Assembly (NCBI GenBank): GCA_016839845.1
Contig: JAEOTL010000221.1
Span: 1-46,327 of the forward strand
Length of the DNA: 46,327 nucleotides
Direction: 5' to 3'
Source: Promethearchaeota archaeon
GTDB taxonomy: Archaea; Asgardarchaeota; Lokiarchaeia; Sigynarchaeales; SOKP01
Below the pieces are notes generated by a model. That model was not told where the DNA came from. It did not search any database and saw only the letters and a program-made list of their open reading frames with translations. Each line of letters opens with the position of its first letter. Positions within the stretch are counted from its first letter, which is position 1. The position numbers were made by a program, and so were the translations under genes. Shown piece after piece: positions 3,862-22,760 of this stretch.

Positions 3862-4704
3862 ATGGATGAAATTTTAAAATTAGCAGATAGTAAGATCCAT
3901 ACCTTATATATTCTCAGAGATTCTGGCACTTGCATTTATAGCAGAAATTTTACAGATAAATTTGAAAAGATCGATATTGATTTAGTAACAAACTTCTTTG
4001 CAGCGTTTTTTTCATTTGCAGAGGAAGTTACCTCAGAAAAAATGGAAAGTCTTGAAATGGTTAATCTGAAATTACTTTTTATATCAAGCAAGGATTTTTT
4101 AGAAGAACCTAAGGAAAACCTTATCTTTGCTCTCATGTCTGATATTGATGAGAATAAAGTGTTTTTGAAGAACAGCTTAATTATGATAATGTCGCATTTT
4201 TACAATGTCTATGATGATTTACTTCCAGATCGGGTTAAAGGTACTCCCAAATCGGTATGGGATGTAAGGAAGGATTATGTCGCAATAAAAAATGATGAGT
4301 TGAATTTAATTATTGACTCAGTTATATCAGGAGGATGGGAAATAGATAGTTATAGAAGCTATTATGAAGATGTAGAGCACTTGACTAATGATTTAATCGC
4401 TGAAAACGAGATACTGGGAGCGGCGCTTTTATCCATTACTGGAAATAAAATATTTTCTAGCTTGTCACCTAAATTAATAACACGTGCTTTAAAAGAATTA
4501 GAAATTAGACTCCATCTAGGATATTCAGATCTTCCACTAACGATACAAGTGTTAGAAGATGGATGCAAAGTGATTACTAAAGAAATTGTGAACAATGAAT
4601 ATTTAATTCTTCATTACGACTCTACAGTTACCTTGGGAATGTGTAATTTAACCTCTACTAAAATAGCAAATCATATTGAGAAATTATTTAAAAGCTGGAG
4701 TTAA
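3862..4704 (+). CDS. Stand-alone longin/roadblock-like sensor protein
   Basis: 280 residues, soluble, no signal peptide. Residues about 12-120 look like an alpha/beta longin- or roadblock-type domain: a beta hairpin ('IHTLYILRDSGTCIYSRNF'), a long amphipathic helix ('DLVTNFFAAFFSFAEEV'), then a beta meander ('LEMVNLKLLFIS', 'LIFALMSDID') and a second helix. The same layout is seen in the N-terminus of the protein at 21840 and the C-termini of those at 14124 and 17472. The remaining 160 residues are mixed alpha/beta without a recognised motif and end in another strand-rich segment. In Asgard archaea such domains are expected to work with small GTPases, but no partner is encoded next to it. ATG start; GGTG at 3851-3854 is a plausible ribosome site. 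The exact family name is uncertain. Confidence 0.65.
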   Translation: MDEILKLADSKIHTLYILRDSGTCIYSRNFTDKFEKIDIDLVTNFFAAFFSFAEEVTSEKMESLEMVNLKLLFISSKDFLEEPKENLIFALMSDIDENKVFLKNSLIMIMSHFYNVYDDLLPDRVKGTPKSVWDVRKDYVAIKNDELNLIIDSVISGGWEIDSYRSYYEDVEHLTNDLIAENEILGAALLSITGNKIFSSLSPKLITRALKELEIRLHLGYSDLPLTIQVLEDGCKVITKEIVNNEYLILHYDSTVTLGMCNLTSTKIANHIEKLFKSWS

Positions 4705-4716
4705 TAAAGATTAAAA

Positions 4717-5496
4717 TTAAAATTTGGTCTTTTTCTGGAATATAAAAATACCCAGTAATATGAAAGCGACTGTAAACGCTACTACAATTAAAAGTCCTCC
4801 CAATAATGAAATTGGGATTTGTTGAGCAGAGACACCTATTAAAGAACTATTATACAAAGGATCAAGTAACCCGTCTCCCAATACCGTTATTTGAAGAAAT
4901 ATTTGTTTAGCCCAGTAAGGGGGTGTGAAAAATACAATAGGGCTTTCAAACGGCCATAAACTTCCTGAAAGAAATAAAATTGGCATGTAATAGAATAATG
5001 CGATTGCGTTCGCAATATCAGGAGTTTTTGCTATTCCAGAGATGATAATTCCTATTCCAACAGATGAAATACCAAATAGAACCGCTATAAAAAAACCGAT
5101 AAATAATTCATATATCCCTTTATATGGGACTTGAAGTACACCATATCCGAGAATAAACATCAAAATAATCTGTAGTGAGATCATAAAGGTTTCAGACAAT
5201 AAAGCCCCTAAAAATAAATTTTTTCTTCCCGTGGGCATGGTGTCCAATCGCGCTAGCATACCAGATGTTTTATCAACGGCAAAAGATATAGCTGCACTTG
5301 TTGTACCTGCAGCTGTAGTATATATTATCATCCCTGGAAACCCATACTGGAACTCCTCACGACCTAGAAAGAAGTAAAACAGCAATGTAAACATAACAGC
5401 AAATCCTAGAGAAAAAACCATGTATTGCCAATGACGGATCTTATCTTTAATATTTTTAATTGCGATTTGGATAGCCTTAATTTCTAAAATATTCAC
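4717..5496 (-). CDS. ABC-2 type transporter permease
   Basis: 259 residues with six predicted membrane helices: about 25-45, 53-75, 105-127, 135-160, 168-187 and 228-252. The layout matches the DrrB/ABC-2 permease family, including the family-type stretch around 'LSGSLWPFESPIVFFTPPYWAKQ' (residues about 175-197) ahead of the last helix. It is the membrane half of an exporter with the ATPase directly upstream. The start is GTG at 5494-5496, one base after the ATPase stop; a strong GGAGGAGG site lies inside the end of the ATPase gene, so the two are translationally coupled. Substrate unknown; DrrAB homologues export drugs or lipids. Confidence 0.9.
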   Translation of the reverse strand: MNILEIKAIQIAIKNIKDKIRHWQYMVFSLGFAVMFTLLFYFFLGREEFQYGFPGMIIYTTAAGTTSAAISFAVDKTSGMLARLDTMPTGRKNLFLGALLSETFMISLQIILMFILGYGVLQVPYKGIYELFIGFFIAVLFGISSVGIGIIISGIAKTPDIANAIALFYYMPILFLSGSLWPFESPIVFFTPPYWAKQIFLQITVLGDGLLDPLYNSSLIGVSAQQIPISLLGGLLIVVAFTVAFILLGIFIFQKKTKF

Positions 5497-5497
5497 C

Positions 5498-6469
5498 TTA
5501 ATCTCTCAACCTCCTCCCAGTTAAATTTAGAAATACATCCTCCAGTGAATTTTGCCGAAACTTTATATTTTCAACCTCATCGATATTTTCTATTAGCCCC
5601 TGCTGAATGAGTTTCGCAAGGTTTTTTAAACCACCTTGAAAAGCGATTAACAACGTTTTCCTTTCCTTCCTGTGGATTTCATGACAACTCGCAACAAACG
5701 AAATGTTTTTTATATTGGTTTTCACTACTTCAAGGTCTTCTTGTTTAAGGAAGGAAACTTCTAACGCATTATCACTTCCATATTTTTCTTTCAATTCAGT
5801 TGGGGTTCCTTCAGCGATGATCTTACCTTGGTCGATTATTGCAATACGATCACTTAAAGAATCGGCTTCAACCATATCGTGTGTCATAAGAATAATTGTA
5901 ACATTCTTATTTTTCAGGTCTCGAATAAAATCCCATACAAGACGCCTTGCCTGGGGATCAAGACCAGCAGTAGGTTCATCAAGAAATAAAATCTCCGGTT
6001 CGAATACTAAAGACATTGCGAGATTTAGACGACGTTGCATGCCCCCCGAAAAGCGTTTAGACCAGTCTTTTCTTCCTGCTATTCCAAAATCTTCCAGTAA
6101 TTTTTTAGATTTCTCTTTTGCTTCTTTGCGCGACATTCCGTGCATTAATGCTACGAACTCAACATTTTCCTCAGCTCGTAAAACTTCATAAATAGTTATT
6201 ATCTGTGGACATACCCCTATACTCTTAACAATCTTATTTTTACTAGTTAAAATACTATGATTATTGACGGTAGCATCACCAGAAGTAGGTGTTAATACTG
6301 TAGTTAGCATTCGCGCCAATGTGGTCTTTCCAGCACCGTTAGGTCCAAGAATGCTATATAATTCACCTTTTTTAATTTTTAAGGACACACCATCTACTGC
6401 CTTAACTTCTTTGAAATGCTTTTTAAGATCCTTTATTTCTATCGCAATAGGTTCTTTGCTTTGACTCAT
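5498..6469 (-). CDS. ABC transporter ATP-binding protein, DrrA-like
   Basis: 323 residues. Walker A is GPNGAGKTT (42-50), the Q-loop is in 'GVCPQI' (about 85-90), the ABC signature is SGGMQRR (141-147), Walker B is ILFLDEPTAGLD (about 160-171) and the switch histidine is in 'MTHDM' (195-199). The C-terminal 95 residues (about 230-323) carry the accessory domain of DrrA/CcmA-type ATPases, ending 'SLEDVFLNLTGR', a sequence typical of drug and lipid exporters. It powers the permease encoded immediately downstream. ATG start. Confidence 0.95.
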   Translation of the reverse strand: MSQSKEPIAIEIKDLKKHFKEVKAVDGVSLKIKKGELYSILGPNGAGKTTLARMLTTVLTPTSGDATVNNHSILTSKNKIVKSIGVCPQIITIYEVLRAEENVEFVALMHGMSRKEAKEKSKKLLEDFGIAGRKDWSKRFSGGMQRRLNLAMSLVFEPEILFLDEPTAGLDPQARRLVWDFIRDLKNKNVTIILMTHDMVEADSLSDRIAIIDQGKIIAEGTPTELKEKYGSDNALEVSFLKQEDLEVVKTNIKNISFVASCHEIHRKERKTLLIAFQGGLKNLAKLIQQGLIENIDEVENIKFRQNSLEDVFLNLTGRRLRD

Positions 6470-6627
6470 GGTTTAAAAATCCCTTCAACAACTTGAATTT
6501 TATTTAATAACTGTATTAATATTAAGAATTCCCATTTGTAAAATAGGTTCCCTTGTTTTTAACTATTAGTTATTATTTAATAGACTATCAAGATCTAATA
6601 AAAAAAAGAAGTTGGAGGTGCAAAGAG

Positions 6628-7233
6628 TTAATGCGTATGAGTACCAAACCCAAAGTAGTTTCTGGGAAATTCAGCGGGATACTCAAACTTTTTGTCAACG
6701 AGGTGCACCATTTCTTTACCCAACCTAAAGGCAGCTTCCATACCCTTTTCACGCTCTCTAACATTTCCTTTATCTGTAGCATACGCTGCAACGAAATTGG
6801 CGGGGAGCATCCGTTGCAGAGTGATAAAGAAATAATAATCTTTAAGGGCATCAATGAGGCCTAAACTGCCTGCTACAACGATTACACCTCCCACCTTGTT
6901 TCCCAAGTTCTTGCCTGGTCGGTTCATCGCAAAAGTACGATCCATAATGGTCTTAGCTTGTGCTGTCATACCGTAATAATGGATGGGGGTACCAAAGACA
7001 ATGCCATCTGCTTCCACCAATTTTTCATAAAGAGGTTGCATATCGTCTTTGATATGACACTCACCCGTTGCTATACAAGAATAACAAGCATCACACCCTC
7101 TAATATCTTTGCCCGACACACTGAATAGTTCTGTGTCAGCTCCATGTTCTGCCGCACCCTTGAGCATTTCCTCCAGTAAGATTACTGTATTCCCCTTTTT
7201 ACGCGGGCTGCATGAGATAGCTAATATTTTCAT
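6628..7233 (-). CDS. Iron-sulfur flavoprotein (NADPH-dependent FMN reductase fold)
   Basis: 201 residues. The N-terminus 'MKILAISCSPRKKGNT' is the FMN phosphate-binding loop of the flavodoxin-like NADPH:FMN reductase family. It is followed by a compact cysteine motif C47-x2-C50-x2-C53-x5-C59, matching the CX2CX2CX4-7C motif of archaeal iron-sulfur flavoproteins that bind a 4Fe-4S cluster next to FMN. 'GIVFGTPIHYYGMTAQAKTIMDR' (about 95-117) is the second flavin loop. It probably moves electrons between ferredoxin and a small acceptor. It lies on the same strand as the acyl-CoA dehydrogenase 106 bp upstream, but joint transcription is uncertain. Confidence 0.88.
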   Translation of the reverse strand: MKILAISCSPRKKGNTVILLEEMLKGAAEHGADTELFSVSGKDIRGCDACYSCIATGECHIKDDMQPLYEKLVEADGIVFGTPIHYYGMTAQAKTIMDRTFAMNRPGKNLGNKVGGVIVVAGSLGLIDALKDYYFFITLQRMLPANFVAAYATDKGNVREREKGMEAAFRLGKEMVHLVDKKFEYPAEFPRNYFGFGTHTH

Positions 7234-7339
7234 TTTTTTCTTCTCACCTTGATATTAACTTAAAAACCAATATGAAGGTTTTTAAACTTTTTTAGAGCAA
7301 TTAAAGAAGATTATAATAAGTTCAATTAGAAGTGTATTC

Positions 7340-8575
7340 TTATAAGCCTAAGTCTTTATACACTTCTCTTTGGACGAGATATCTAAGAATTTCTGCTGTT
7401 CCCCCACCGATTTGAGCAATCTTTACATCTCGATAATATCGTTCCAAGGGAAATTCTTTGGTATATCCCATACCCCCGACAACTTGGAGAGCATCAGTGA
7501 CGATTTGGACTGCATTATCACTGGCAAAACATTTTGCGGCTCCTGCTTCTTTTGTAGCACGTTTGTTATCATCAATCATTCTTGCTGCTCTTAAAAGCAT
7601 TAAGCGCCCTGCTTCTATTTTCATATACATCTCGGCAATTTTAAAACTAATTCCTTCAAACTCTCTAAGCTTCTTCTTAAATTGTGTCCTCACGGAAGAA
7701 TATTTCGTCGCAACTTCAAATGCAGAACGAGATATACCTAAATATTGACTTCCTACAAAGACTCGTTCTGCATCAAGCCCTCGCATCATAACTTGAACTC
7801 CTTCATTTTCTTTTCCAATAAGATTGTCAATTGGAACTTCACAGTTATTAAATCTTAGATGTGAATTTACACATCCTTTACGTCCCATTAATTCATAATC
7901 TTTTACAACCTCAAAACCAGGAGTATCCGTAGGAAAGACTATCGCACTTATACCTTCTCGGGGATGTACATTGGGATTGGTAATACAGTAAAGAAGAATA
8001 AATTGAGCAATACTACCATTTGTAATGAATCTTTTTTCACCATTTATTATAAACTGATCCCCTTTTTTTACAGCAGTAGTTCGCATACCTCCAACTGCAT
8101 CACTCCCGGCCGTTGGTTCGGTAATTCCCAAGGCACCCAACGCTGAACCATCCATTATAGGCTTGAGAAACCTTTCATGTTGCTCAGGAGTCCCAAAGTA
8201 GATAATAGGAACACCAAAAAGATTACAGCTACATCCATAAATAACTGCAGTTGGATAGTGAACAGCTGATAACTCTTCACCAAAGATCATTCTGTATACG
8301 GTACCTTTTCCGAAACCGCCAATTTCTTCTGGAAAGGCTAGGGGGAAATATTTCTTCCCCAATTTTTCAATTAATTTTAAAGTCAATTTAACATTGTCCT
8401 CCCGATCAATTTGCTGAACATATGGATCTATTTCCTTTTTTGCATATTCCTGAATCTCTTTACGAAAATGGTTTTCTTCATCTGTAAACATATATAAACT
8501 TCCGGGGGACATACTTTCACCATACCGGACGTTTAAATCTTCATAACTTATATGCCCATCATTAGTCACAAACAT
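7340..8575 (-). CDS. Acyl-CoA dehydrogenase
   Basis: 411 residues from the ATG at 8573-8575; a GTG directly before it (8578) is an alternative. FAD-dependent alpha,beta-dehydrogenation of acyl-CoA thioesters. Family signatures: 'GALGITEPTAGSD' in the middle beta-domain and 'QVVGGMGYTKEFPLERYYRDVKI' in the C-terminal helical domain. The usual medium-chain catalytic glutamate site (YEGT) reads GGGT here. However 'MRGLDAER' (glutamate about residue 270) matches the position of the catalytic base in isovaleryl-CoA and long-chain dehydrogenases, so it is probably active on branched or longer acyl chains. No electron-transfer flavoprotein genes are in the window. Confidence 0.93.
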   Translation of the reverse strand: MFVTNDGHISYEDLNVRYGESMSPGSLYMFTDEENHFRKEIQEYAKKEIDPYVQQIDREDNVKLTLKLIEKLGKKYFPLAFPEEIGGFGKGTVYRMIFGEELSAVHYPTAVIYGCSCNLFGVPIIYFGTPEQHERFLKPIMDGSALGALGITEPTAGSDAVGGMRTTAVKKGDQFIINGEKRFITNGSIAQFILLYCITNPNVHPREGISAIVFPTDTPGFEVVKDYELMGRKGCVNSHLRFNNCEVPIDNLIGKENEGVQVMMRGLDAERVFVGSQYLGISRSAFEVATKYSSVRTQFKKKLREFEGISFKIAEMYMKIEAGRLMLLRAARMIDDNKRATKEAGAAKCFASDNAVQIVTDALQVVGGMGYTKEFPLERYYRDVKIAQIGGGTAEILRYLVQREVYKDLGL

Positions 8576-8676
8576 CACTTATTTTTTTGATTGCAGTCGA
8601 GAAATAATAATGATTATATAAATAGTAGAACCAAATTAAATTATACAATTATCATCGGATGATGAGGTAGACAAGA

Positions 8677-9819
8677 ATGGAAGGATTCGAAATTGCGGCT
8701 GTACGACCTCCAACTGAGAATTTTAGTCTTTCAATCACAACTCAATTTAATTGTCCATGGAGAAAATGTGCTTTTTGTGGGAGTAGTATACCCTCAAAAA
8801 CAAGGAAGTTTCAACAGAGATCCATCGATGATGTAAAGCAAGATATCGATAATGCTGCTGAATTGAATGAATATATTGTTGAATCTGGTTCAGTTAATCC
8901 CGCAAAAGCTCTTAGTATCCTACCTGACAATCCTGAATTGAATAATTGTATTTATCACCTTATTTACTGGCATTTATATACGAACGCAACCACCGCTTTC
9001 TTAGGAGGAGCGAATCCTCTAATATATAAAGAGGATTATTTGGACGAGGTTTTAAATCATTTGCAAAATCGTTTTCCTTCTGTAAATCGGATAACCAGCT
9101 ATGGTAGAACTAGAACGGCATCGAAAAAATCACAGGAATACTTCTCTAATCTCCATAACGCAGGATTGGATCGTATCCATGTAGGACTAGAATCAGGGGC
9201 AGATTCAGTACTGACATTCATGAATAAGGGGGTCACCAGTGAAGGTCATATTATGGGGGGGAAGAAAATAAAGGATGGAGGGATTTCGTTGTGTACCTAT
9301 GTAATGCCTGGATTAGGAGGAAAATATTTAAGTAACGAGCATGCCCTTGAGACTGCACGTGTTTTAAATGAAGTAGAACCCGATTTTGTGAGATTACGAA
9401 CGTTGGAAATCTTCCCATTTACAGGACTTTTTTTAAAAAAACAGGCAGGAGAATTTCAGGAATTAACTGAAGAGGAAGTAGTAAGAGAAGAAAAACTATT
9501 AATCGAAAATATGACATGCAACACCACTGTAACCAGTGATTCCGCGGCTAACTTGCTACTCGAAATCTGGGGAGAATTGCCCAATGATAAAAAAAAGATT
9601 TTACGAGCAATAGATAATTATTTGAATATGGGTGAAAATGAAAAGTTAGAATTCAGTTTAAAACGAAGATTAGAAGCATTTGAGAGTCAATTTGGAGGAA
9701 TAACGATGAACATTAAACGAAGGTTAGACATACTTGCAAATACGAATAAAAGCGACGAAGATTATTATAAGAAAGTATATAAGCTAATCAGATATATAAG
9801 ACAAAGATTAATTCCTTAG
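8677..9819 (+). CDS. Radical SAM protein of unknown substrate
   Basis: 380 residues. C26-x4-C31-x2-C34 in 'FNCPWRKCAFCG' is the radical SAM cluster motif in the CPWxxCxFC form, with one residue more than the common CX3CX2C spacing. 'RTRTASKKSQEYFSNLHNAG' and 'RIHVGLESGADSVLTFMNKG' (about residues 165-182) match the GLESG SAM-contact strand, and 'ISLCTYVMPGLGG' follows as a later barrel strand. The C-terminal 90 residues are helical and highly charged. No B12-binding domain. GAGGT at 8664-8668 is a good ribosome site for the ATG. It stands alone, divergent from the acyl-CoA dehydrogenase, so context does not reveal the reaction. Confidence 0.88.
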   Translation: MEGFEIAAVRPPTENFSLSITTQFNCPWRKCAFCGSSIPSKTRKFQQRSIDDVKQDIDNAAELNEYIVESGSVNPAKALSILPDNPELNNCIYHLIYWHLYTNATTAFLGGANPLIYKEDYLDEVLNHLQNRFPSVNRITSYGRTRTASKKSQEYFSNLHNAGLDRIHVGLESGADSVLTFMNKGVTSEGHIMGGKKIKDGGISLCTYVMPGLGGKYLSNEHALETARVLNEVEPDFVRLRTLEIFPFTGLFLKKQAGEFQELTEEEVVREEKLLIENMTCNTTVTSDSAANLLLEIWGELPNDKKKILRAIDNYLNMGENEKLEFSLKRRLEAFESQFGGITMNIKRRLDILANTNKSDEDYYKKVYKLIRYIRQRLIP

Positions 9820-9933
9820 CATAATAGATAATATTAATAGCAAACAACGAGAAAAACAAATTAGAATTTAAGTATTTAACCTATTACTACAAATCTTATA
9901 TCTTAGACTTTAAAGGAGAGAAAATGAATTATT

Positions 9934-11196
9934 TTAAGAAATACGGGGTGAAAATATATCAGAAAGCTTTTTCCAAAATTCTTTTATAATCCATTTCTCC
10001 CGCTTTTTATAGACAGAGGATAATTCCAAAAATATTTGTTTTATTTGTAATGATTGGAAATAGCTGATTTTTGATGCAATAAGTGAGAACATATAATTCC
10101 TTCTTCCCTCTCTACAAGATTCATCAGGATACGAATCAAAAAAGGCATATGCCATAATTCGAACATTTTGTATATTTATTAGTGCACCTTCTGCATTTAA
10201 TATATGATCTTGTCCATATATTGGAACTGATACTTCATAGAGCTGCTCACCAATGTCACTGAGTGAGAAGTCTAATTCTGTATCATAAGGGAAATAACTT
10301 ATCAATTTTGGACCTTCTCTATCATCCCATTGTACTTCAACTAATATTAATAAATCTTTATGGGCCTCGGGACCTAAATCCTCTTTGATTTCATAAGACG
10401 AAAAAATTTCATTAATCTTTTCATTAATTAATTTAACAATTTTTACATCATCTAACTTCTTTTCAATACCATTGAATTTTTTTTCAAGTATTTCTAGCTT
10501 CTGAAATATCGCTTTTTGACTTAAAATGCTTAGATCTTGAGGAGTCAAAGAAGAGACTGGGGAAATTATTTGAGTCATACTAGTTTTTGGATGATAAATT
10601 ATGTCTTTTGATAAGAAATAATCACTCTGAATATCCACTCCGAGCATCAAGCTGGTAATACAATAAAAACTATCCACTACACCTTCTTCTGTTTTAGTAG
10701 ACGTTTCTATATAAATTAAATTATGTTTACGTATAAATTGGTTAATTTCTTTTGGTGATACAGCAAAAAAATCCACTCTACTTTTATTTCCTACTAGAAG
10801 AATTGGTATTTCACCTCTAGAGAGTTTGTCCTTTTCTAAAACTTCATTTATACTTTCCATCCAATTTAATAAGCGTATGAAGGATTCTCGATTTGCTAAA
10901 TCAAAAAATAAAATTATACCGTTAGAACCTAAAGAATATTGAGGTAATAAAAATCTGAATCTCTCTTCACCTGAAAAATCCCAAAGCTGAATAGCACAAA
11001 TTTTAGGTCCTTCCTCTGTATTTACAGTTATATTCTTAGCATAAAGTTCAGCACCGATTGTTGGAGACATTTCATCCTCTTCATAACGACTCTCCAGAAT
11101 AAATGATTTCACAAACGCCTCTTTACCAATCCCTTTATCTCCTACAGCGCATATCTTAAAAGTAATATCCACTGCATTTTTCACTATTTTACTCAC
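9934..11196 (-). CDS. Degenerate Ras-like GTPase fused to a C-terminal longin-like domain
   Basis: 420 residues. Residues 10-185 follow the Ras/Rab plan: P-loop GDKGIGKE (19-26), switch I 'SPTIGAEL', switch II 'WDFSGEERF' (72-80), G4 'VGNKSRVD' (135-142) and G5 'ETSTK' (164-168). Two key positions deviate: the P-loop Ser/Thr that ligates Mg is Glu26, and the Asp of NKxD is Arg140, so GTP binding may be weak or lost. A linker with coiled coil (about 222-268) leads to residues 282-415, a longin-like module opening 'VEVQWDDREGPKLISYFP', resembling the DxxxGP...YP opening of longin domains in Nprl2/DENN-type proteins. GTG start at 11196; in-frame GTG codons follow closely, so the exact start is uncertain. 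Confidence 0.85.
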   Translation of the reverse strand: MSKIVKNAVDITFKICAVGDKGIGKEAFVKSFILESRYEEDEMSPTIGAELYAKNITVNTEEGPKICAIQLWDFSGEERFRFLLPQYSLGSNGIILFFDLANRESFIRLLNWMESINEVLEKDKLSRGEIPILLVGNKSRVDFFAVSPKEINQFIRKHNLIYIETSTKTEEGVVDSFYCITSLMLGVDIQSDYFLSKDIIYHPKTSMTQIISPVSSLTPQDLSILSQKAIFQKLEILEKKFNGIEKKLDDVKIVKLINEKINEIFSSYEIKEDLGPEAHKDLLILVEVQWDDREGPKLISYFPYDTELDFSLSDIGEQLYEVSVPIYGQDHILNAEGALINIQNVRIMAYAFFDSYPDESCREGRRNYMFSLIASKISYFQSLQIKQIFLELSSVYKKREKWIIKEFWKKLSDIFSPRIS

Positions 11197-11633
11197 TGCT
11201 TTAATAACCCTTGATGATAATTTTCATAAGTTCAAAAAATCCTCATAAGCGGGAGGATCCACTAAATCTATTATATTAAGATGAGTACAATATATTGTAT
11301 GGAAACCAAATTTAACACTGGAATAGGATACGCATAGGATTTGATTCCAGCCCAGTTTGTTCAATAGAATCCCTACCCAATATTCAGATTTTCTAAATTT
11401 TGTGAAATTAGTATTACTAATAGATATTTAAAAGTTTACATTTTTGTAATAGAACAATTATTTGAACATAAAAAAGTGTATCTCAAAAAAAAAAAAATCA
11501 ATGTATAAGGCTCTAAATTTTTAGATTCCCTTGAAATCAGATTTTGAGTTTAATCTTAAGGTATTTCTATGTAAAATCTAAATTTTTGACCTCAAAATCC
11601 CCAGATACTCATAGTAGTAGAAGTGAAATTTAA
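11197..11633. other. 437-bp intergenic region, no gene seen
   Basis: AT-rich spacer on the 5' side of the GTPase-longin gene. It contains a run of 13 A near 11487-11499 and a weak 9-bp inverted repeat (GATTTTGAG near 11540 with CTCAAAATC near 11593). No ORF with a ribosome site, no tRNA-like fold and no clear hairpin-plus-U terminator was found. The promoter of the minus-strand GTPase gene must lie at its left end. Confidence 0.4.
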
Positions 11634-12176
11634 TTAAATATAAAGCACCGAATAAAATACACCAACTAGCAAAGTTATAATTCCGTACACATAAAATACA
11701 ATGATATAACGTCTACTTACGAACATTAAATGAGTTATATACCAGGCTACGAGACCACCAATGCTCCAAACAATAATATCTGAACTTGCATTTAATGGAC
11801 TATCAAGTATGGGTTTCATTCCCAAATATAAACCTAAGGTATTTTCAATAATTTCCCATACTATAGCCACTATGACACTAATTATCCAACTTACAAACAT
11901 CTTCCATGGTACTGGTATTTTTACTGTGTGGATAGAAACATTCTCAGGAGAAACATCGCGATTATTACGTATAAAATAAATTGTAAAAGCCAAAATAAAA
12001 AATGCAATTCCGAGTAGTAGATGTCCCATGCTCCAGAAATCGAATACCGCAATTGAAATAGGTTCTCCAATTACATGGATTATTGGCCAACCTATCAGAG
12101 CCGCAATGAGGACAAGTACTAGTTGCACAATTGCCAGACACCCTAATATTACTAAAATTTGCCATCTTAATTTCAT
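11634..12176 (-). CDS. Multi-pass membrane protein, distantly VanZ/DUF2238-like
   Basis: 180 residues with about five membrane helices: 5-28, 47-69, 93-113, 131-148 and 155-178. The pattern 'DFWSMGHLLLG' in helix 2, 'WEIIENT' in helix 3 and 'NASSDIIVWSIGG' before helix 4 resembles the H...WE..E...D..xG arrangement of YjdF/DUF2238-like membrane proteins, but similarity is weak. ATG start. Divergent from the beta-lactamase-like gene. Function unknown. Confidence 0.7.
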   Translation of the reverse strand: MKLRWQILVILGCLAIVQLVLVLIAALIGWPIIHVIGEPISIAVFDFWSMGHLLLGIAFFILAFTIYFIRNNRDVSPENVSIHTVKIPVPWKMFVSWIISVIVAIVWEIIENTLGLYLGMKPILDSPLNASSDIIVWSIGGLVAWYITHLMFVSRRYIIVFYVYGIITLLVGVFYSVLYI

Positions 12177-14123: not shown

Positions 14124-15197
14124 TTATTGCAAAAAGTATTGTTTTACTAAGTTGCTCGCTTTTTTAAACTTGGTGATTTCTTCAAAAAACTCTGATTCCA
14201 ATTCCTTTTTAAACATTCTCTCAAATGATAAATGAAACATTTCTAATCGATATTTAAATTCATTAGAGGGAACGGTTGTAATTAAAATGCTTAGTGAATG
14301 GCTACCATGTGTAAAATATATTCTCTTATTTTCATAGTCAATTTCTTTTATATGCCCTTTGGTAGTCAAAATTTCTTTTAGAATCATATTTACTCCCCCT
14401 ATAACTGTACCTGCAATATCATCATTAACTTGAGTTACCAATGTTTTAAATTTATACTGGTATAGCATTAAAGATGACCTTGGTTCAATAACCATCAATC
14501 GTTCCATTTTCATCATCCATTCCAACTCTGAAAGAATTGGGAAGCGACTCCACCCATGGTTCAACATCAAAGCCCCAATTATAACTAGAATGGAGTTTAT
14601 GTTAAAAGTCCATAAATTGTAGAGTAGTAAAATAAAATTTGATAAACCTGCCAGAAGTAGACCTAGAAGAAACCATGGAATTGCCTTAGCTCGTCTAACT
14701 ATTTCAAGAGATTTAAGGTTTTTTATGAATTTAACCCCAACAATCAATAACGGTAGACAGCTTACTATGAAAATAAAAAAGGGTTCAATAAACTTAAAAA
14801 TATAAAGAGAAAAAATAATTCCTGTACCGATAAGTGAAGTAATTGTATATGGGTATGAAAATTTCACAGTTTTTGGATTTAGAGCACGAAGTTTTGTTTC
14901 GATTTCTATAAAAAAGATGAGAAAAATAATACCAGCACTAAGATCAATAAATCTTATTGTATCTATTAAGTCATATAGAGGATACTCAATATAGAAATAT
15001 TGAAAAGCACCAGTTAAATTGAAGATCCCAAGACTTATAAGAAAAATTGTGAATCCCGTTGTTATTGACAGAAATTTTCCTGTTTTGATTTTTTTGCCAT
15101 TTTGAACAGCTACATAGAATAATAGAAATGCCGCAAAAAACCTTAACAATACAAAAATATCCTGAATGGGCCCATAATCAGAAGTTTGAAAAAACAT
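14124..15197 (-). CDS. Seven-TM receptor-like protein with C-terminal longin/roadblock-like domain
   Basis: 357 residues. Seven membrane helices can be placed: about 11-31, 43-63, 82-100, 118-136, 139-157, 174-194 and 199-214. They are followed by a short juxtamembrane stretch and a soluble domain (about 236-345): hairpin 'MVIEPRSSLMLYQYKF', helix 'DDIAGTVIGGVNMILKEIL', strands 'HIKEIDYENKRIYFTHG' and 'HSLSILITT', then helices. That tail has the same order of elements as the sensor-like domains at 3862, 17472 and 21840. The N-terminus resembles the 7-TM sensor regions placed before histidine kinases in other prokaryotes, but here no kinase follows. ATG start, no clear ribosome site. Inference: a membrane receptor that signals through a longin-type module. 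Confidence 0.75.
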   Translation of the reverse strand: MFFQTSDYGPIQDIFVLLRFFAAFLLFYVAVQNGKKIKTGKFLSITTGFTIFLISLGIFNLTGAFQYFYIEYPLYDLIDTIRFIDLSAGIIFLIFFIEIETKLRALNPKTVKFSYPYTITSLIGTGIIFSLYIFKFIEPFFIFIVSCLPLLIVGVKFIKNLKSLEIVRRAKAIPWFLLGLLLAGLSNFILLLYNLWTFNINSILVIIGALMLNHGWSRFPILSELEWMMKMERLMVIEPRSSLMLYQYKFKTLVTQVNDDIAGTVIGGVNMILKEILTTKGHIKEIDYENKRIYFTHGSHSLSILITTVPSNEFKYRLEMFHLSFERMFKKELESEFFEEITKFKKASNLVKQYFLQ

Positions 15198-15612
15198 ACC
15201 AGGCGCCTGATTGCATAAATTTCTTTATGGGGAAGAGGATTTCCTTTTACCCTTATAAAAAATTCTTTGAATGATCTATATTAAGCTAACCTTGTTAATA
15301 ATTGTACATGATTGCTAAAACACTCTGAATTTAAATAGCTCTTATTTTAATATCTTTGATAGATTTGGTGAGACAAAGAAAAGTTAAATAATTGTTTATA
15401 ATCTCTTTTAATAAAAACCACTAATTTTCAGCGATTAAGATGAAGAGAGAGCAGTAAATCTGTATTATTTTACTAATTTTTGGCAGTAGTCTCATGTTTT
15501 CTCTTCTGCTTAGTTTTAGGTTCTATTTCAATATCTTAAATTAACTCAATTTAAGATTAAATAAGAATAAGAAATAAAAATAAAAAATAAATTAAAAATA
15601 AAACATCTTTTA
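15198..15612. other. 415-bp intergenic region
   Basis: Spacer between the 7-TM gene and the thermosome gene, both on the minus strand. Its right part holds the thermosome terminator region described separately; its left part must contain the promoter of the 7-TM gene. No ORF or RNA gene is supported. Confidence 0.45.
15533..15605 (-). terminator. U-rich terminator region and AT hairpin after the thermosome gene
   Basis: On the minus strand the region directly after the thermosome stop is a long T-rich tract (about 15558-15605), as expected for archaeal transcription termination. It is followed by a perfect 10-bp inverted repeat, ATCTTAAATT / AATTTAAGAT at 15533-15542 and 15548-15557 with a 5-base loop. 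The stem is almost all A/T, so the T tract is probably the working signal. Confidence 0.5.
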
Positions 15613-17301
15613 CTAGTAATCCATCCCCGGGGGCATACCCATGCCACCGCCCATCCCTGGAGGCATACCCATACCACCGCCCATTCCCGGAGGCATTCCA
15701 CCAGGTGGTCCAGCAGATCTTTGGCTTGCGATAACATCATCAATTCTGAGGATCATTGATGTTGCTTCAGTGGAGCTTTTGATAGCTTGTATCTTAACGA
15801 CAGTTGGTTCGACAACACCAATTTTCATCATATCAGGGACAGTTTCTCCAGTGTCTAGGTTAGTGCCAGCGAAAACATTGCCTTTTTGATGTGAGGACCT
15901 TAGTTGCATTAAAATATCAATTTGGTCTAAGCCAGCGTTTTCAGCTAAGGTTTTTGGGATGATATCAAGTGAATCGGCAAAGACTTCGACAGCAAGCTGT
16001 TCACGGCCGCCCAGAGTAGATGCATAAGCCCGTAATTGAATAGCAGTTTCAATTTCAGGAGCGCCACCACCGCCGACAATTTTCTGGTCTTCAACTACGT
16101 CGCGAACTACGCAAAGGGCGTCATGAATTGCTCTATCAACTTCATCGATGACGAGTTCAGTTCCTCCCCTTATAAGAATTACCACAGATTTAGGATCTTT
16201 GCATTCTTCAATGAAGATCCAGGAATCATTCATAATTTTGCGTTCTTCGACAATTCCAGCCCATCCAAGTTTATCTTCAGTGACGTCGTCGAGGTTGGTA
16301 TAGATCATACCACCAGTTGCTTTAGCGAGTTTCTCTATATCAGATTTTTTAACCCTTCTGATGGCCATAATTCCTGCTTTGGTAAGGAAATGTTGCGCCA
16401 AGTCATCAATTCCTTTTTGGCAGACGAGTACGTTTGCCCCAGATTTTTCAATTTTTTCAACCATAATTCTGAGCATTTTTTCTTCTTCGTCAAGAAATTC
16501 TTGAATTTGTTCTGGTCTTGTAATTTGAAGTTTAGTATCGAATTCAGTTTTCTCAATTTCGACAGCGCTTTGTAATAGAAGAATTTTGGCATCTTTCATG
16601 CTTTTTGGCATTCCAGGGCTTACAACTTCTTTGTCAAGGATGATACCCTTAATTAAACTGGTATCATCAATGCTGTCTCCCGCTTTCTTTTGAATTTGAA
16701 CTTTATCAATGTCAGCTACCCAATCTCCGTTTTCTTGTTTTTCAGCTACAGCTTTAATAGCATCCATACAGATTTTGGCAAGCATAATTTTTGATTCCGA
16801 GACGATTTTACTGGACATACACGTTTGTGCCGCGTTTAGTAATCCTTGTTCGTCATCGATCCCGCTCTTTACTGAGATACTTTCAAGTATTTCAACTGCT
16901 TTATCAGCCGCTTTTCGAAATCCTTCGGTAATCACGGTTGGGTGAATTTTTTGTTCAACGAGTTTCTTGGCTCGTTTTAAGAGTTCACCTGCGAGAATCA
17001 CGGAGGTTGTGGTACCATCGCCAACTTCAGAGTCTTGAGTCTTCGAAACTTCTACCATCATTTTGGCAGCTGGATGTTGTACATCAATCTCTTTTAAGAT
17101 TGTCGCACCATCATTGGTTATAACAACATCGCCAAATTGGTCTACGAGCATTTTATCCATACCTAGTGGACCAAGTGAAGTTCGTACTGCCTCAGCGATA
17201 ACAATTGCCGCGGCAATATTGTTTGACATCGCATCTCTGCCCCGTTGTCGCTCTGTACCTTCCTTCATAATTAATACAGGTGTTCCGCCTAATTGTGCCA
17301 T
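15613..17301 (-). CDS. thsA: Thermosome subunit (group II chaperonin)
   Basis: 562 residues, the full length of archaeal chaperonin subunits. ATP-site motifs: '[12 protein letters not shown]' (41-52), '[11 protein letters not shown]' with Asp64 (60-70), GDGTTT (94-99), and late '[13 protein letters not shown]'. The flexible C-terminus carries Gly-Met repeats ('GMPPGMGGG' type), the usual tail projecting into the folding chamber; the repeats are also near-identical in DNA (about 15617-15700). It assembles into double rings that fold cytosolic proteins with ATP. Only this subunit is in the window; other paralogues may lie elsewhere. ATG start; an AT-rich TATA-like stretch (ATTATAAAG on the minus strand) sits about 60 bp upstream. 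Confidence 0.98.
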
Positions 17302-17471
17302 ATTTTATCACGTTTTGTTAATTTAGTATTGAATTTTTTTTTTGAAATAATATTTTCTTTATAATGATCTCTAAGTCATAAAATTAAAAAAGTTTACGAA
17401 TTATGGAAAAGATGGAAATATTTTAATAGTATCAATTAAAAATAGTTTAAGTCATATCATTTGATACAGTA

Positions 17472-19529
17472 TTAAGAAAAAATTTCGTTAATCACAGACT
17501 TAAGAGCTGGTGATCTTTCAAGTTCTAATACTTCACTGGTTTTAACTGATTTGTTTAAGGCTTGCCATATTTCTGAATTTTCTCTTATGGTATCAGAAAA
17601 TCGAACTAACTTCTGTAGGGCAGGATAGGATTGCCCCTTGATAACATAGCAAGCCAGAAATGGATCAATTGGGTGTATCAGGATGGTATTTTCACCGATT
17701 CGAATCCGATCAATCGATTTTGAGAAGAGTTCAGAACTGAAATCATTAAATGCTGACATGAACGAGCTAAATATTCCATCAATATCCCAATTACTCTCAA
17801 AATTATGATTGAAATAAGGAATTCCACTGTTGTCCATAATGAGTAGTAATATTGATTCTTCATCTTTTGCTTTTGGGGGATCTACTGTACGTTTTCTTTT
17901 CAAGCGGTTAAGAACTCCGTCAACAGATGCTAATTCAATACGATCTGCCATTGAAGTCTCACCTTTTTTGATCTTTTCCCAGATGTCAATTTGATCCAAT
18001 AATTTGTCATGTTCGCTTGAAATCCCCCACGCTAATAAATTAAGACCGTGAGATTCAGCGACATGTTGCGCTTCCATTAGAATTCTTTTTGCTTCCTCGA
18101 TATCCATCTTAATTAAGGCTAACTTGGCCTGTAATAATTTGACGTTAGCTAACCAAGAATAATGATTTCTTGTTTCTACTATTTTTAAACTCTTATCAAT
18201 AAGTGGTTCTATCTCATCTAAAATTTGAGGATCATTATACATAAATAACTCCTCAAACAGAAGATTACATAAATTACCCATTGACCAAATTGGGATATCG
18301 ACATTATTAGGTTGATCTACAATTATAAAATCAAATAATTCTTTAAATACGGTTTGTGCTTCTACGTGATCTCGCATTCTTGTACTTGTTTTTAAGACAT
18401 ATGCTTTTGACATCAAATAATCGACATGAAGATGAGCATCCCCTATTTCCTTTCTTTGTTCATAAAGTTCAGATATACGAGAATAGTATTGAATTGCTTT
18501 TTCGCGAGAGTCTGCATCAATATATAAAAAAACAAGGAACACGAGAGCTTGTCCTATTCGGATTTTAAAATCCCATTTTTCAGCAAGCTTTAAACTGCGT
18601 TCACAATACTCGATCGCCAAACTATCTTCTCCCATAAAACGGTATGTATACCCCACTTGTCTTAAGGAAGAGACAAGAATATCTTTAAGATTTGACTTTT
18701 CAGCAAGTTCGGCTGCTTGCAGTTGATAATTTATAGCTAGATTTAATTCACCTTTCGCAATATAGATCTCGGACAAATACATTTGTGTCCTTACTTGTGT
18801 TAGGCTGCTGATTTCCTTAATCGATAAACCTTGCTTACAGTATTCAATAGCTTGATCGTTGTTCCCTTTACTATAATGAATCATTGCAATCAGAAAACAA
18901 ACATCTGGGATTACAACATTGTGATTTAGATTTTTATTAAGCTCCATGCTTTTCATGGCATATTTTAACGCTTTAGTAAGATTCCCTTTAATATTATTAA
19001 CCCATCCTAATAACAGATATGTTGCGGCGAGATCTAATTTATTGCCCAATTTTTCTTTCTCAATTAAATTCACGCATTCCTCAGCTAATTTTACGGCTTC
19101 ATCGTATTTACCCATAAAATATAAGATCCAAGATTTTATGAATGAGATTCCTCTTCTGTACAGCCTTAGAGAAGGATCATCAGCAAGCGAATTTAGTTTT
19201 GTTTCAGCATCTAATATGTATGTAGATGCAATATCAGTATCCCCTAAGAATGCTAAATATGCTTTTCCAGTAAGAGCACTGATAGATTCAAGTGTTGACC
19301 CGAGGTCTTGGCTCATTTGATATGCAATATTGTATATATTCACAGCCTTCCTAGTTCGTTGTTTGTATAGATATACACTCCCTTTTATCAAAAGCGCGGA
19401 GAGGCGTTCTCCAGCATCGAGTGACTCTTTCTTTTCAAAATTCTCTATAATTTCAAGTGTTTCATCTAATTTGCCTTGATCCAGAAGTTCTCTTGCATGA
19501 ATTAATTCTTTTGGAGGTTGTTTAGCCAT
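17472..19529 (-). CDS. TPR-repeat protein with C-terminal longin/roadblock-like domain
   Basis: 685 residues, soluble. Residues about 5-500 are helical repeats of TPR type: repeated W/Y-G-A-Y/F pairs such as 'ATYLLLGWVNNIKGNLTKALKYAMKSM' and 'IAMIHYSKGNNDQAIEYCKQGL', resembling the TPR arrays of LGN-like and bacterial signalling scaffolds. After a basic linker, residues about 557-665 form a sensor-like domain: 'SILLLIMDNSGIPYFNHNF', helix 'IDGIFSSFMSAFNDFSSELF', then strands 'RIRIGENTILIH' and 'FLACYVIKG'. This is the clearest case of the domain shared with 3862, 14124 and 21840. Inference: a scaffold whose longin-like end binds a GTPase or another such domain. ATG start; monocistronic by spacing. 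Confidence 0.85.
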   Translation of the reverse strand: MAKQPPKELIHARELLDQGKLDETLEIIENFEKKESLDAGERLSALLIKGSVYLYKQRTRKAVNIYNIAYQMSQDLGSTLESISALTGKAYLAFLGDTDIASTYILDAETKLNSLADDPSLRLYRRGISFIKSWILYFMGKYDEAVKLAEECVNLIEKEKLGNKLDLAATYLLLGWVNNIKGNLTKALKYAMKSMELNKNLNHNVVIPDVCFLIAMIHYSKGNNDQAIEYCKQGLSIKEISSLTQVRTQMYLSEIYIAKGELNLAINYQLQAAELAEKSNLKDILVSSLRQVGYTYRFMGEDSLAIEYCERSLKLAEKWDFKIRIGQALVFLVFLYIDADSREKAIQYYSRISELYEQRKEIGDAHLHVDYLMSKAYVLKTSTRMRDHVEAQTVFKELFDFIIVDQPNNVDIPIWSMGNLCNLLFEELFMYNDPQILDEIEPLIDKSLKIVETRNHYSWLANVKLLQAKLALIKMDIEEAKRILMEAQHVAESHGLNLLAWGISSEHDKLLDQIDIWEKIKKGETSMADRIELASVDGVLNRLKRKRTVDPPKAKDEESILLLIMDNSGIPYFNHNFESNWDIDGIFSSFMSAFNDFSSELFSKSIDRIRIGENTILIHPIDPFLACYVIKGQSYPALQKLVRFSDTIRENSEIWQALNKSVKTSEVLELERSPALKSVINEIFS

Positions 19530-19706
19530 TATACTCGGATTTGCAATTTATGGATTAAAAATATGGAAGAAGAGTTTCCTTAAAAGTCTTTAGTACATCT
19601 TTTTAAGTTCAAATTTAGAGAGCATCTAAGAATTAACTAATGAGATTTCAGAAAAGCGTAAAAAAAAAGAATTAATGATAATGTATTTATTCGGAATATT
19701 AGTTAT

Positions 19707-20021
19707 TCATCCAAGTCCTATCATGGGTAGTGCTTCTTGAACTGTGAGTAAAGGTTCGATTTGATACCTGAAACCTTCAACTGTTCTATACCCGGCATAT
19801 CTAGCTGCTATTGATTTCATTGCCTCATACATTTTATCATTTGGAGCCTCGTACAGCGCATAGATTTTATATTCTCGATCGGAGGATCCAGCAGTGGAAA
19901 CCCATATATTTACACGTTTTACAAAATCTGCTACTTTGGGGACTTTGTCTCCTACAAACATTTGTCCAATTTCATCTGCTCTATGGCCAGGATACGAAGA
20001 AGCTACCATTATGGATACCAT
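19707..20021 (-). CDS. Small conserved-looking alpha/beta protein, function unknown
   Basis: 104 residues with no membrane segment or cysteine motif. It reads as a ferredoxin-like alpha/beta fold: strand 'VSIMVASSYP', helix 'ADEIGQMFVGDKVPKVADFVKRV', strand 'NIWVSTAGSSDREYKIYALYEAPND', helix 'KMYEAMKSIAARYAGY', and strand 'FRYQIEPLLTVQEALPMIG'. The residue composition and codon use are those of a real gene, and its ATG start is isolated between two spacers. I do not recognise the family; dimeric alpha/beta-barrel proteins are one possibility. Confidence 0.7.
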   Translation of the reverse strand: MVSIMVASSYPGHRADEIGQMFVGDKVPKVADFVKRVNIWVSTAGSSDREYKIYALYEAPNDKMYEAMKSIAARYAGYRTVEGFRYQIEPLLTVQEALPMIGLG

Positions 20022-20214
20022 TTAGAATTTTTCACCTTTATTTTGAATTTTATATAGTTTAAGACCAATTTGTAATTAGATTTCTTAGTAAAATAATAAA
20101 GGCATTATCATATATATATGGAAATGGGGGAAGTGTACAAAATTGTAAATTTGGGTTTGTAAGTTATAAAAAAAGTAAAATTAGAAATATTTAAATTCCC
20201 AAAATGTGAAGTTT

Positions 20215-20901
20215 TCACCAATCGGGCATTCCTAAACTATTTAACTTACCAACATTAGGCATATTACTGGTAACGTTTGGTTCACCGTAATATGAGACAT
20301 TTCCAAGCCCATGAACAGTAACATCAAACTCCTCAGTAACCCAAACTGTTGTGCTTCCTACTCCTTGTACTGTTAACGTAGCTTTCTTACTTTCTAATTT
20401 AGGAGCATAATATTCTCCAGCACCCTTAACAGTTATTTTTTGTTCTAATGTCTTTCCCATTAAAGTAATCCTACCCGCACCAGGTAATGTAACTTCTAAA
20501 TTTTTTGTTTCAAGATCAGTAATATTAACATTTCCTGCACCACTCAACTGTAACCATAAGCTATCTGATTTTATTCGTGTCGCGGTGGTGCGAACTAAGC
20601 CGGCTATTTCTAAATATTTAAGGTTTTTGACTGTTAGATTATATCTTATCACATTTCTGGTTACACTTGTTCTTACCGCATCGCCTACTTTTTCAAACCA
20701 TTTCCCTCTTGAAGATATCATTAGAATCCCATCTTTCACTGTCGATTCTATTCTTTCAAGTATATCTTTAGGTGCGATTATGGTAAGTGATTCTTGTTTG
20801 CCTTGAGTGATTGTCAATTCTGCTTCGTGTCTTACCTTTAAATAAACTTGGTCAAAATTCTTCACATCTCGCTTTTCTGAAGTCATTTCTCTTGAGCTCA
20901 T
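20215..20901 (-). CDS. DUF2807 (head GIN domain) beta-solenoid protein
   Basis: 228 residues. It starts 'FDQVYLKVRHEAELTITQGKQESLTI', then has repeated short strands with the family's G-[AV]-G turns: 'LSGAGNVNI', 'LPGAGRITL', 'VKGAGEYYA', 'VQGVGSTTV', 'VHGLGNVSY'. This is the DUF2807/putative auto-transporter head GIN pattern, a right-handed beta-helix. Bacterial members are often exported, but there is no signal peptide or anchor here, so it appears cytosolic. ATG start. Role unknown. Confidence 0.85.
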   Translation of the reverse strand: MSSREMTSEKRDVKNFDQVYLKVRHEAELTITQGKQESLTIIAPKDILERIESTVKDGILMISSRGKWFEKVGDAVRTSVTRNVIRYNLTVKNLKYLEIAGLVRTTATRIKSDSLWLQLSGAGNVNITDLETKNLEVTLPGAGRITLMGKTLEQKITVKGAGEYYAPKLESKKATLTVQGVGSTTVWVTEEFDVTVHGLGNVSYYGEPNVTSNMPNVGKLNSLGMPDW

Positions 20902-21089
20902 CTTATTTTATAACTCCCATTTTTGATGATTCTGAATTGTGTTTGAATTCTGAGACCACGTTATACTCAGCCCACATGGTCCACAGTTTCATAATTCAAC
21001 ATCTTTTAATAATATTATCTTAGCTTTTAATCTTCGTAACTAAAAGATGATATTGGATTTGAAACTTAGAAGAACAATATCAGAATGAA

Positions 21090-21251
21090 TTACTTAGTAA
21101 GTTCCCTTCTCTTAGGTCTTAAATCTTTACTGAAGCATCGCCGACATTTTTTGGCTTTTACAGGATTTAAAGCACCACATTTTCGGCAAACAGATTTCTC
21201 CAATAAGTGGTATCTGGCAATTCTTCTTTTAACGGGGTCGTCGATCGGCAC
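21090..21251 (-). CDS. rpl40e: 50S ribosomal protein eL40
   Basis: 53 residues. A zinc ribbon with CRKCG (C22, C25) and CRRC (C37, C40) pairs, then the basic tail 'SKDLRPKRRE', is the eL40 signature; in eukaryotes this protein is made as a ubiquitin fusion, here it is free. The start is GTG at 21249-21251: an in-frame TAA lies two codons upstream and no ATG is available, so the start is well fixed. Divergent from eL38, 194 bp away. Confidence 0.93.
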   Translation of the reverse strand: MPIDDPVKRRIARYHLLEKSVCRKCGALNPVKAKKCRRCFSKDLRPKRRELTK

Positions 21252-21445
21252 TTTTTATCAGTTTTTCTATTTTATTCTGGTTCCCTAGGCTGAACTTAGG
21301 AAAATAAATAATATGAATAATTTCAAAAACACGCGATTCAAAATAAAATTTTTGATTGAATTGAAGGTGAACTATGATAAAATTAAAATTCTATAGTAAA
21401 TAGATCTTATTATTAAGTACACATTAGATTCTGAGTTGAATAACC

Positions 21446-21640
21446 TTGCCGCGAGAAATAAAGGATGAAGAAAAGTTTTTAGAATTGGCTGAATTTGCAG
21501 TTCATTGTCGTGTGAAGAGATTACGAGACGTAGTTAAGTTAAAGTTGAGAACCAAGAAGATTCTTTATACATATAAAACTGATCCCGCAACTGCAGAAAG
21601 ACTTCTCAGAGATATTAGCTGCGAAGTTATTGAGCTCTAA
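21446..21640 (+). CDS. rpl38e: 50S ribosomal protein eL38
   Basis: 64 residues, the usual size of eL38. The start 'MPREIKDEEKFLELAEFA' matches the family opening (MPR-I-(D/E)-x-F-L), followed by 'VKLKLRTKKILYTYKTDPATAERLL', equivalent to the K-R-x-x-x-YLYT strand, and a short C-terminal helix. eL38 is a eukaryote/archaea-specific large-subunit protein found in only part of the archaea. The start is TTG at 21446-21448, with no better in-frame codon that keeps the family N-terminus. Confidence 0.92.
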   Translation: MPREIKDEEKFLELAEFAVHCRVKRLRDVVKLKLRTKKILYTYKTDPATAERLLRDISCEVIEL

Positions 21641-21839
21641 AAGACTCAAAAATTTTTGTTAGAACTTATTCTTTTTCTGAGTTTTGTGTGAACATGGTTT
21701 TTGTACTAGTTTTTAACCTATAAATCAAAAAAGGAAAATTATAAATTTTCAAATTAAGTTAAATTATTTATAGTTGCGATCGATTTTGAAGGAAAGTAAT
21801 TAAAATAATTAAAAATATAACATAGGGTTAAATTAATTC

Positions 21840-22760
21840 ATGATTCAATCGCTTTATTTTTTCCAGAGCAACTCAAGGAATTTGTTATACAACAAGAATT
21901 TTCAAAGCGATGAGAAGATGGAGATGTTTAGCTCTTTTTTTGGGGCACTCCAGACGTTTGTATCTGAATTAACAACAAGCACCACTGAATCTTTAAGTAC
22001 AATTGAATTAGGTGAATATCTAGTTTTAATTTCAAGAGTTCCTGAGGTGTCCTCCGATTTAGTCATAATTATAGATAAGGAAGACAACAAAGAAGCACAG
22101 AAATTGATTCCCAAGATTGTCAAAATTGTAATGAATTATCAGGATTTGTTTGTAAATTGGGACAAAGATCTGGAAATGCTTGAAAAATTCGATTTAAAAA
22201 TAGTAGAGTTAATTTTATCAAATAAAAAATTGATCTCTGAATCCTCCATGACTATCGATCAAAGTTCCATTCTAAAATCCATTTGGGAGCTCAAAGGTAC
22301 ATTATCTGATCAAATACGGGAAACATTATTAAAAAAAAAAGAGAAACTCACTGCAATCTACTTGACCGAGGAAAATTATCTCAAAAAATATGAAACTGCC
22401 AAGAGGTTAATTAAAATCTCAGAAAAGCTTAGAGATGATGAAAAATTTATAGAGTACGAGATTGAAGCAAAATCGCTTAGAGACGAAATAAAGGATAGAA
22501 GACTCCGATTGCAGTATTATTTGGATATGGTTAAGGAATCTTTAGAGTTTTCACGGTATGCTGAGACATATTCCTACCTGTATTCGTTTTGCTTAAAACT
22601 TAAAAACTTCACTGACCCTCAAGTTATTGAGAAATATACAGCATTAGCAAAAGTGGTGTTAAATAGAGAGAAAATTACTACAGAAGAATTTAGGGAGGCT
22701 GTGAAGAGCATAACAACGATTGAAGATGAAATCGATAAAATTCTTACTGTAGAAATATAA
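21840..22760 (+). CDS. Longin/roadblock-like N-terminal domain with long helical C-terminus
   Basis: 306 residues. Residues 1-100 repeat the sensor-like layout: 'MIQSLYFFQSNSRNLLYNKNF' hairpin, helix 'MEMFSSFFGALQTFVSEL', strands 'LSTIELGEYLVLIS' and 'DLVIIID', helix 'EAQKLIPKIVKIVMNYQDLF'. Residues 100-306 are charged helices, probably a helical-repeat or coiled-coil region, rich in Lys and Glu. ATG at 21840. It is monocistronic between eL38 and the Cys-motif/KH-like gene. Partner unknown. Confidence 0.72.
   Translation: MIQSLYFFQSNSRNLLYNKNFQSDEKMEMFSSFFGALQTFVSELTTSTTESLSTIELGEYLVLISRVPEVSSDLVIIIDKEDNKEAQKLIPKIVKIVMNYQDLFVNWDKDLEMLEKFDLKIVELILSNKKLISESSMTIDQSSILKSIWELKGTLSDQIRETLLKKKEKLTAIYLTEENYLKKYETAKRLIKISEKLRDDEKFIEYEIEAKSLRDEIKDRRLRLQYYLDMVKESLEFSRYAETYSYLYSFCLKLKNFTDPQVIEKYTALAKVVLNREKITTEEFREAVKSITTIEDEIDKILTVEI

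Follow-up and report, generated by a model that had tools for sequence, protein, structure and literature searches.

Four proteins encoded in a 46,327-nucleotide stretch of DNA from a Promethearchaeota archaeon (contig JAEOTL010000221.1, positions 1 to 46,327; hereafter the window) share one homologous domain, and sequence comparison confirmed it in four different protein contexts. This domain is a longin and resembles the longins of TRAPP subunits and the first one in FUZ, MON1 and HPS1. The longin fold in eukaryotes often helps to control small GTPases. We consider it reasonably likely that the archaeal domain acts as a platform that pairs, binds small GTPases and changes their nucleotide state, with inputs from the parts to which it is fused. 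All four open reading frames (ORFs) were found where an earlier note on this DNA had placed them, and we refer to them as A (ORF at 3862, plus strand), B (14124, minus strand), C (17472, minus strand) and D (21840, plus strand). They comprise the following parts, in which TPR stands for tetratricopeptide repeat, AF2 for AlphaFold2 and pTM for predicted template modelling score.

3889 to 4233, plus strand: longin domain of A, residues 10-124, matched by its own family profile and by those of B, C and D
4297 to 4701, plus strand: second domain of A, residues 146-280, possibly roadblock-like, with a weak resemblance to MglB
14127 to 14537, minus strand: longin domain of B, residues 221-357, from family profile matches
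14562 to 15161, minus strand: membrane region of B, about seven helices, from a hydropathy scan
17475 to 17867, minus strand: longin domain of C, residues 555-685, aligned by hhalign to B (96%) and D (93%)
17901 to 19511, minus strand: TPR scaffold of C, residues 7-543 (Pfam TPR_12, 5e-23; AF2 pTM 0.86)
21840 to 22229, plus strand: longin domain of D, residues 1-130
22257 to 22745, plus strand: predicted helical region of D, residues ~140-302, from the AF2 model

Relatives were gathered for each protein (187 at E ≤ 0.001 for D and 309 for the end of C, with the best 120 listed in both cases; 105 for A; and for B 25 places, spread over 12 of 14 Loki genomes), and profile hidden Markov models were made per family, with 104 (A), 19 (B), 121 (C) and 121 (D) sequences. 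When the four profiles were compared with the window ORFs of at least 60 amino acids, cross-family matches below 0.01 were confined to the named ORFs. The B profile matched A (3e-11), C (1.5e-7) and D (5.8e-6), the C profile A (5.9e-5) and D (5e-7), the D profile A (1.8e-6) and C (4.7e-7), and the A profile C (2.6e-4) and D (5.9e-5). The next-best window ORF (36385-36756, E of 0.018) was considered as a fifth copy and not counted. The window sequence of B was matched by its own profile alone (3.3 with the C profile, unlisted by those of A and D), and B is therefore linked to the group through its family profile and relatives. Profile-profile comparison with hhalign gave probabilities of 98 (A-B), 96 (B-C), 93 (C-D), 83 (B-D), 82 (A-D) and 40 (A-C), and reversed profiles scored at most 18.5, compared with 28.6-74.8 for the observed pairs. 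The four proteins could instead be unrelated, with a β-β-α-β-β-β-α layout that is common by chance or convergence, and both the modest A-C similarity (40% by itself) and the lack of a match of window B to the A, C and D profiles would fit such a view. We regard it as highly improbable, however, because none of the 40 column-shuffled decoys per pair reached the observed hhalign score, the cross-family E values range from 3e-11 to 2.6e-4, and A, B, C and D form a transitive chain at 98, 96 and 93%. Hence, the sharing of one domain among four contexts, as proposed in the earlier note, was borne out.

The same note had described the domain as longin/roadblock-like, and the order of structural elements speaks for the longin. 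The AF2 models of D and C both have the β1-β2-α1-β3-β4-β5-α2-α3 order of longins, in C as strands 558-565 and 571-576, helix 583-601, strands 608-611, 614-621 and 624-631, and helices 634-650 and 652-664. A roadblock has an N-terminal helix ahead of the first strand, which is absent from longins (PMC10933270; this and the papers cited below are referred to for the accessible parts of their text). D begins with a strand (residues 2-9), and its last strand is followed by helices 80-99 and 111-126, an order on which the roadblock was rejected as the identity of the shared domain; the helices preceding the C longin are part of the TPR region. The D model is of moderate confidence, with predicted local distance difference test (pLDDT) values below 50 at residues 24-32 and block means of 79-95 over residues 161-300. 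It structurally matches solved longins, and its top neighbours include AP-1 sigma, AP-2 sigma and Sec22b at tied Z; the listed neighbour rows (VIA) reach residues 1-135 at most and leave the helical half unmatched there. Rows listed for a search with the full C model were mostly helical-repeat chains over residues 4-544, and the longin of C therefore rests on element order and profiles. A and B would have the longin fold by homology to the others.

Curated profiles point in the same direction through relatives of the window proteins. At E ≤ 1, Pfam Sybindin matched 35 of 51 members of family A (best 4.5e-5) and 8 of 19 members of family B (best 3.1e-5), and Fuz_longin_1 matched 23 of the 51 members of family A (best 4.8e-5); window protein A, unlike these relatives, had no match to either. 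One stand-alone relative (L107) passes the cut-off of Fuz_longin_1 (PF19036), and the best family members reach 3e-5 to 5e-5. None of 24 members of family D matched a longin family, and Pfam and NCBIfam named nothing convincing in A, B or D and TPRs in C. In profile searches of the PDB, family B matched Trs23 (6.4e-4) and then TRAPPC1, with V-ATPase F also listed at 0.41. The top match of family A was SRX at only 0.036, in a list where GntR regulators and cyanoglobin, both unrelated, stand at 0.12, and the searches with D and with C-type longins gave nothing credible.

The domain stands in a different setting in each protein. A had been called stand-alone, which does not hold, as it has a second domain at residues ~146-280. 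This domain resembles MglB weakly (E of 0.7-1.3) and, as a control, aligned with the longins of A, B, C and D at hhalign probabilities below 1%. A roadblock assignment was not adopted: the similarity to MglB is weak, and the A ortholog of genome G010 is absent among the 23 Robl_LC7 matches of that genome. For the seven membrane helices noted in B, the hydropathy scan found six above threshold, and the seventh (around residues 115-133) was read by eye. Successive loops contain 0, 4, 0, 5 and 6 lysines plus arginines, a positive-inside pattern that places the C-terminus in the cytosol. In the C family (window 17475-19529), the whole protein is 38-57% identical to the window, and the ~130-residue longin end ~70-83% in those of the 120 listed relatives with any difference from it. 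Scanning genomes with the D alignment yielded 14 loci, each from Lokiarchaeota or Lokiarchaeia. A thermosome gene lies near D in all 14, the gene at 23018 follows D in 13, and PTH2 and TruD are present in 12, the remainder being short contigs. D (window 21840-22760) is without a Pfam family despite this thermosome/PTH2/TruD neighbourhood. No matches of A, B or C at 1e-8 were found within the stretches fetched around these 14 loci, and within the window a conserved neighbourhood was found for D only. D looks like a core gene, and C looks like a local insertion between the thermosome gene and D.

The window also encodes two small GTPases, both of which the earlier note had named and both of which are real.

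9937 to 11196, minus strand: small GTPase with a C-terminal extension (Pfam Ras 4.7e-30, residues 14-182)
45813 to 46325, plus strand: small GTPase, cut at the window end (Pfam Ras 3.3e-48)

The first (9934-11196) has a C-terminal extension of ~240 residues, in which a search with the single sequence detected no relation to the longin (hhalign probability below 0.4). The signalling toolkit that the note had seen in longins and GTPases holds as genomic linkage in related genomes and not as a local cluster in the window: the longin toolkit is genome-wide.

Indeed, the domain is a promiscuous Asgard module. A search of 119 genomes of the phylum with the B-type profile found at least one place at 1e-5 in 117, and the C-type profile matched at 1e-10 in 49; the per-genome counts are lower bounds for many genomes, as only some first-look candidates were scored. 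The B-type profile matched in all 13 Loki genomes searched with it (the 14 without G009), at 11-42 places in each, and the B longin matches other proteins, mostly in their C-terminal parts, in 12 of the 14. Across Loki genomes, longins follow seven-transmembrane (7TM)-like regions, transporters resembling the major facilitator superfamily (MFS) and ectodomain-transmembrane receptors, and are joined to TPR scaffolds and GTPases; the regions for several locus sets were hand-picked from match lists and not drawn at random. In the complete chromosome of G010, 33 ORFs in 26 regions carry the domain, a few of them cut by region ends. Membrane helices precede the domain in 11 of the 33 by hydropathy: two neighbouring six-peak (7TM-like) proteins, one each with four, ten and seven helices, and six in which a single helix directly precedes the longin, four of which also have a helix near the N-terminus. 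Two further ORFs with a single hydropathy peak elsewhere were not counted. The three C-type proteins of G010 that were scanned all carry TPRs. In other genomes, the longin forms the end of ~550-residue MFS-like proteins (MFS_1 at 1.3e-5, below the cut-off), and one relative (L113) has it fused to an Arf/Roc-type GTPase. One G010 protein (L103:6013-8616) combines longin, P-loop region and carbon-nitrogen hydrolase (CN_hydrolase), with a separate GTPase gene directly upstream. C-type genes also form tandem arrays; in L149 (G025:C148) and L150 (G085:C50), for example, five consecutive same-strand genes each have the size of a TPR-longin (~730 amino acids), with no GTPase alongside in the fetched stretch.

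TPR-longin genes are linked to GTPase genes. Across 84 non-overlapping loci analysed with one gene-calling rule (overlapping loci L101, L105, L116, L118, L135 and L136 were left out), a GTPase gene lay directly downstream of 19/87 TPR-longin (C-type) genes versus 11/635 other genes, and of 2/34 GTPase genes; in G010 alone, the figures were 4/14 C-type versus 6/208 other genes. Fisher's test gave 1e-11 (0.0017 for G010), values that overstate independence because the loci were fetched around longins and some of them are from related genomes. Ras-family matches number 53-75 per genome in nine Loki genomes. Among TPR-longin ORFs of at least 400 amino acids that had 300 bp or more of sequence downstream, 11/43 in a first set had a Ras-like gene ~85-195 bp downstream on the same strand, as did 6/37 in a second set from other genomes; where complete, these genes mostly have 176-185 codons. 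A run of TPR-longins, GTPase, second GTPase and receptor-longin occurs in G010 (L120), G008 (L125) and G014 (L127). The first GTPase is Ras-like (Ras 1.3e-42 in G010), the second Ras/Arf-like (1.5e-8 to 1.2e-10), and the receptor-longin of 753-757 amino acids has one helix near the N-terminus, another around 511-517 and its longin at ~532-684. The run stops at a contig edge in G011, and in G003 its first three genes are present, spread out, with no longin receptor within the fetched stretch.

Longin genes also occur in tandem. The 148 domain copies of five genomes (from 149 listed matches at E ≤ 0.001 in four genomes and 0.01 in G010, leaving out a 33-residue fragment, G010 1095068) formed 12 adjacent pairs, all of them on the same strand, compared with a mean of 2.3 and a maximum of 9 in 2000 randomisations. 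In a tree of the longin part from the 7TM-like pairs of four genomes, with three upstream members cut by locus ends, the upstream members form one clade (0.995) and the downstream members another (0.759). The 7TM-like pair is therefore old, a trace of the kind that a heterodimer would leave. The same interpretation of MFS-longin pairs was only partly supported.

Taken together, the homology, the longin fold in the D and C models, the GTPase fusion in a relative, the TPR-longin/GTPase linkage and the old 7TM-like pairs underlie the platform reading. Two longins, often encoded next to each other, would together make a composite surface on which a Ras/Rab-like GTPase is held and has its nucleotide state changed, by guanine nucleotide exchange factor (GEF) or GTPase-activating protein (GAP) activity. 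Input or location would come from the fused part, that is, the seven-helix receptor in B, the TPR scaffold in C, the helical adaptor in D and the second platform-like domain in A. The longins are probably paired and possibly have GEF activity; dimerisation, GTPase binding, the direction of the effect and the ligands are what we infer. Several observations weigh against this reading. Eukaryotic longins also act as adaptors and SNARE regulators; no window domain reaches a Pfam cut-off by itself; and Foldseek with the D model matches roadblock chains as well. Within the window, no longin gene, that of C included, adjoins a GTPase gene. In the wider set, 68/87 TPR-longin genes are without an adjoining GTPase gene, and none of 40 non-TPR longin genes has one directly downstream. 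Tandem pairs can arise by duplication alone, and the MFS-longin pair of G008 looks recent.

Alternatively, the longin could be a cytosolic adaptor or cargo-type platform, as in AP sigma or SRX, with GTPases bound as recruiters and left unregulated. The AP sigma and Sec22b neighbours of D, the SRX match of family A and an ESCRT study reporting Asgard proteins that combine a longin with an adaptin appendage and Vps28-C (PMC10936438) favour this explanation. We consider it rather unlikely, as the family B profile points to TRAPP subunits instead and the close TPR-longin/GTPase gene pairs suggest a tighter functional pair. Use of the related fold as a small-molecule or ligand sensor, with the GTPase links being secondary, would agree with the PAS/GAF-like position of the longin right after membrane helices or TPRs and with the placement of longins in a broad PAS/GAF superfamily (PMC4917890). 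This is less probable still: conservation in the C family is far higher in the longin end than in the TPR part, which agrees better with a common output than with a variable input. No result shows the longin itself sensing, as the term sensor in the earlier note implied, and sensing is likelier to lie in the parts fused to it (7TM regions, ectodomains, TPRs).

A more speculative reading, which we put forward tentatively, is receptor-controlled small-GTPase signalling in Asgard archaea without a kinase or heterotrimeric G protein. A longin half-site on a receptor or transporter and a second longin, from a tandem partner or a TPR-longin, would make a switchable GEF for the co-encoded Ras-like GTPase. 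The receptor-longin fusions suggest a route by which external signals could be passed to GTPases in the archaea most closely related to eukaryotes, and the TPR-longin/GTPase gene pairs are concrete candidate partners. Such candidates matter since matching GTPases to regulators by gene layout was described as difficult in MK-D1 (PMC10933270, a 2024 structural study), where as a rule GTPase and longin genes do not share operons (PMC10933270; PMC4917890).

The abundance of longins and longin-GTPase fusions are already known. Lokiarchaeum has 41 predicted longins, and Loki genomes have many copies, some fused to GTPases or TRAPPC3 (PMC10933270; PMC4917890); earlier reports also include Vps28-C/longin proteins with TPR or Ig-like parts (PMC10933270, PMC4917890, PMC7997004, PMC12383261, PMC9834061, PMC10936438, PMC11291895, PMC4915359). 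Relative to the literature searched, the receptor and transporter settings and the TPR-longin/GTPase operons appear new: longin-tailed 7TM, MFS-like and ectodomain receptors and such operons are not described there, and most subscription papers and bioRxiv preprints lie outside its coverage. The known Asgard longin proteins have the same fold, with no 7TM, MFS-like, ectodomain or TPR fusions in the accessible text of PMC10933270 and PMC4917890; the words transmembrane, TPR and receptor each occur 0 times in the main text of the former. The Vps28-C/adaptin-appendage/longin proteins of PMC10936438 are multidomain longin proteins with TPR and Ig-like parts noted and GTPase activation suggested. 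They differ in being ESCRT-linked, and membrane receptors, transporters or GTPase operons are not described for them in the text accessible.

MglB, a GAP/GEF for MglA, is a prokaryotic regulator of a Ras-like GTPase of the longin/roadblock type with weak similarity to the second domain of A. It differs from the window longins in being a roadblock, and it is not known to be fused to membrane regions or TPRs. The tri-longin RabGEFs Mon1-Ccz1 and Fuzzy-Inturned, whose first longins form the GTPase site as a heterodimer (PMC12383261), are comparable through the Fuz_longin_1 matches of the window proteins' relatives; they have three longins per subunit, whereas each window protein has one significant longin match. 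TRAPPC1/TRAPPC4 (Bet5/Trs23), whose two longins form a Rab-contacting heterodimer (PMC10933270), is similar to family B by its Trs23 and Sybindin matches. It differs in being part of a soluble complex with TRAPPC3-type subunits, whereas the window longins are fused to other modules. If the receptor-controlled scheme is true, receptor and scaffold longins of this kind would be the source of the TRAPP and tri-longin GEFs of eukaryotes.
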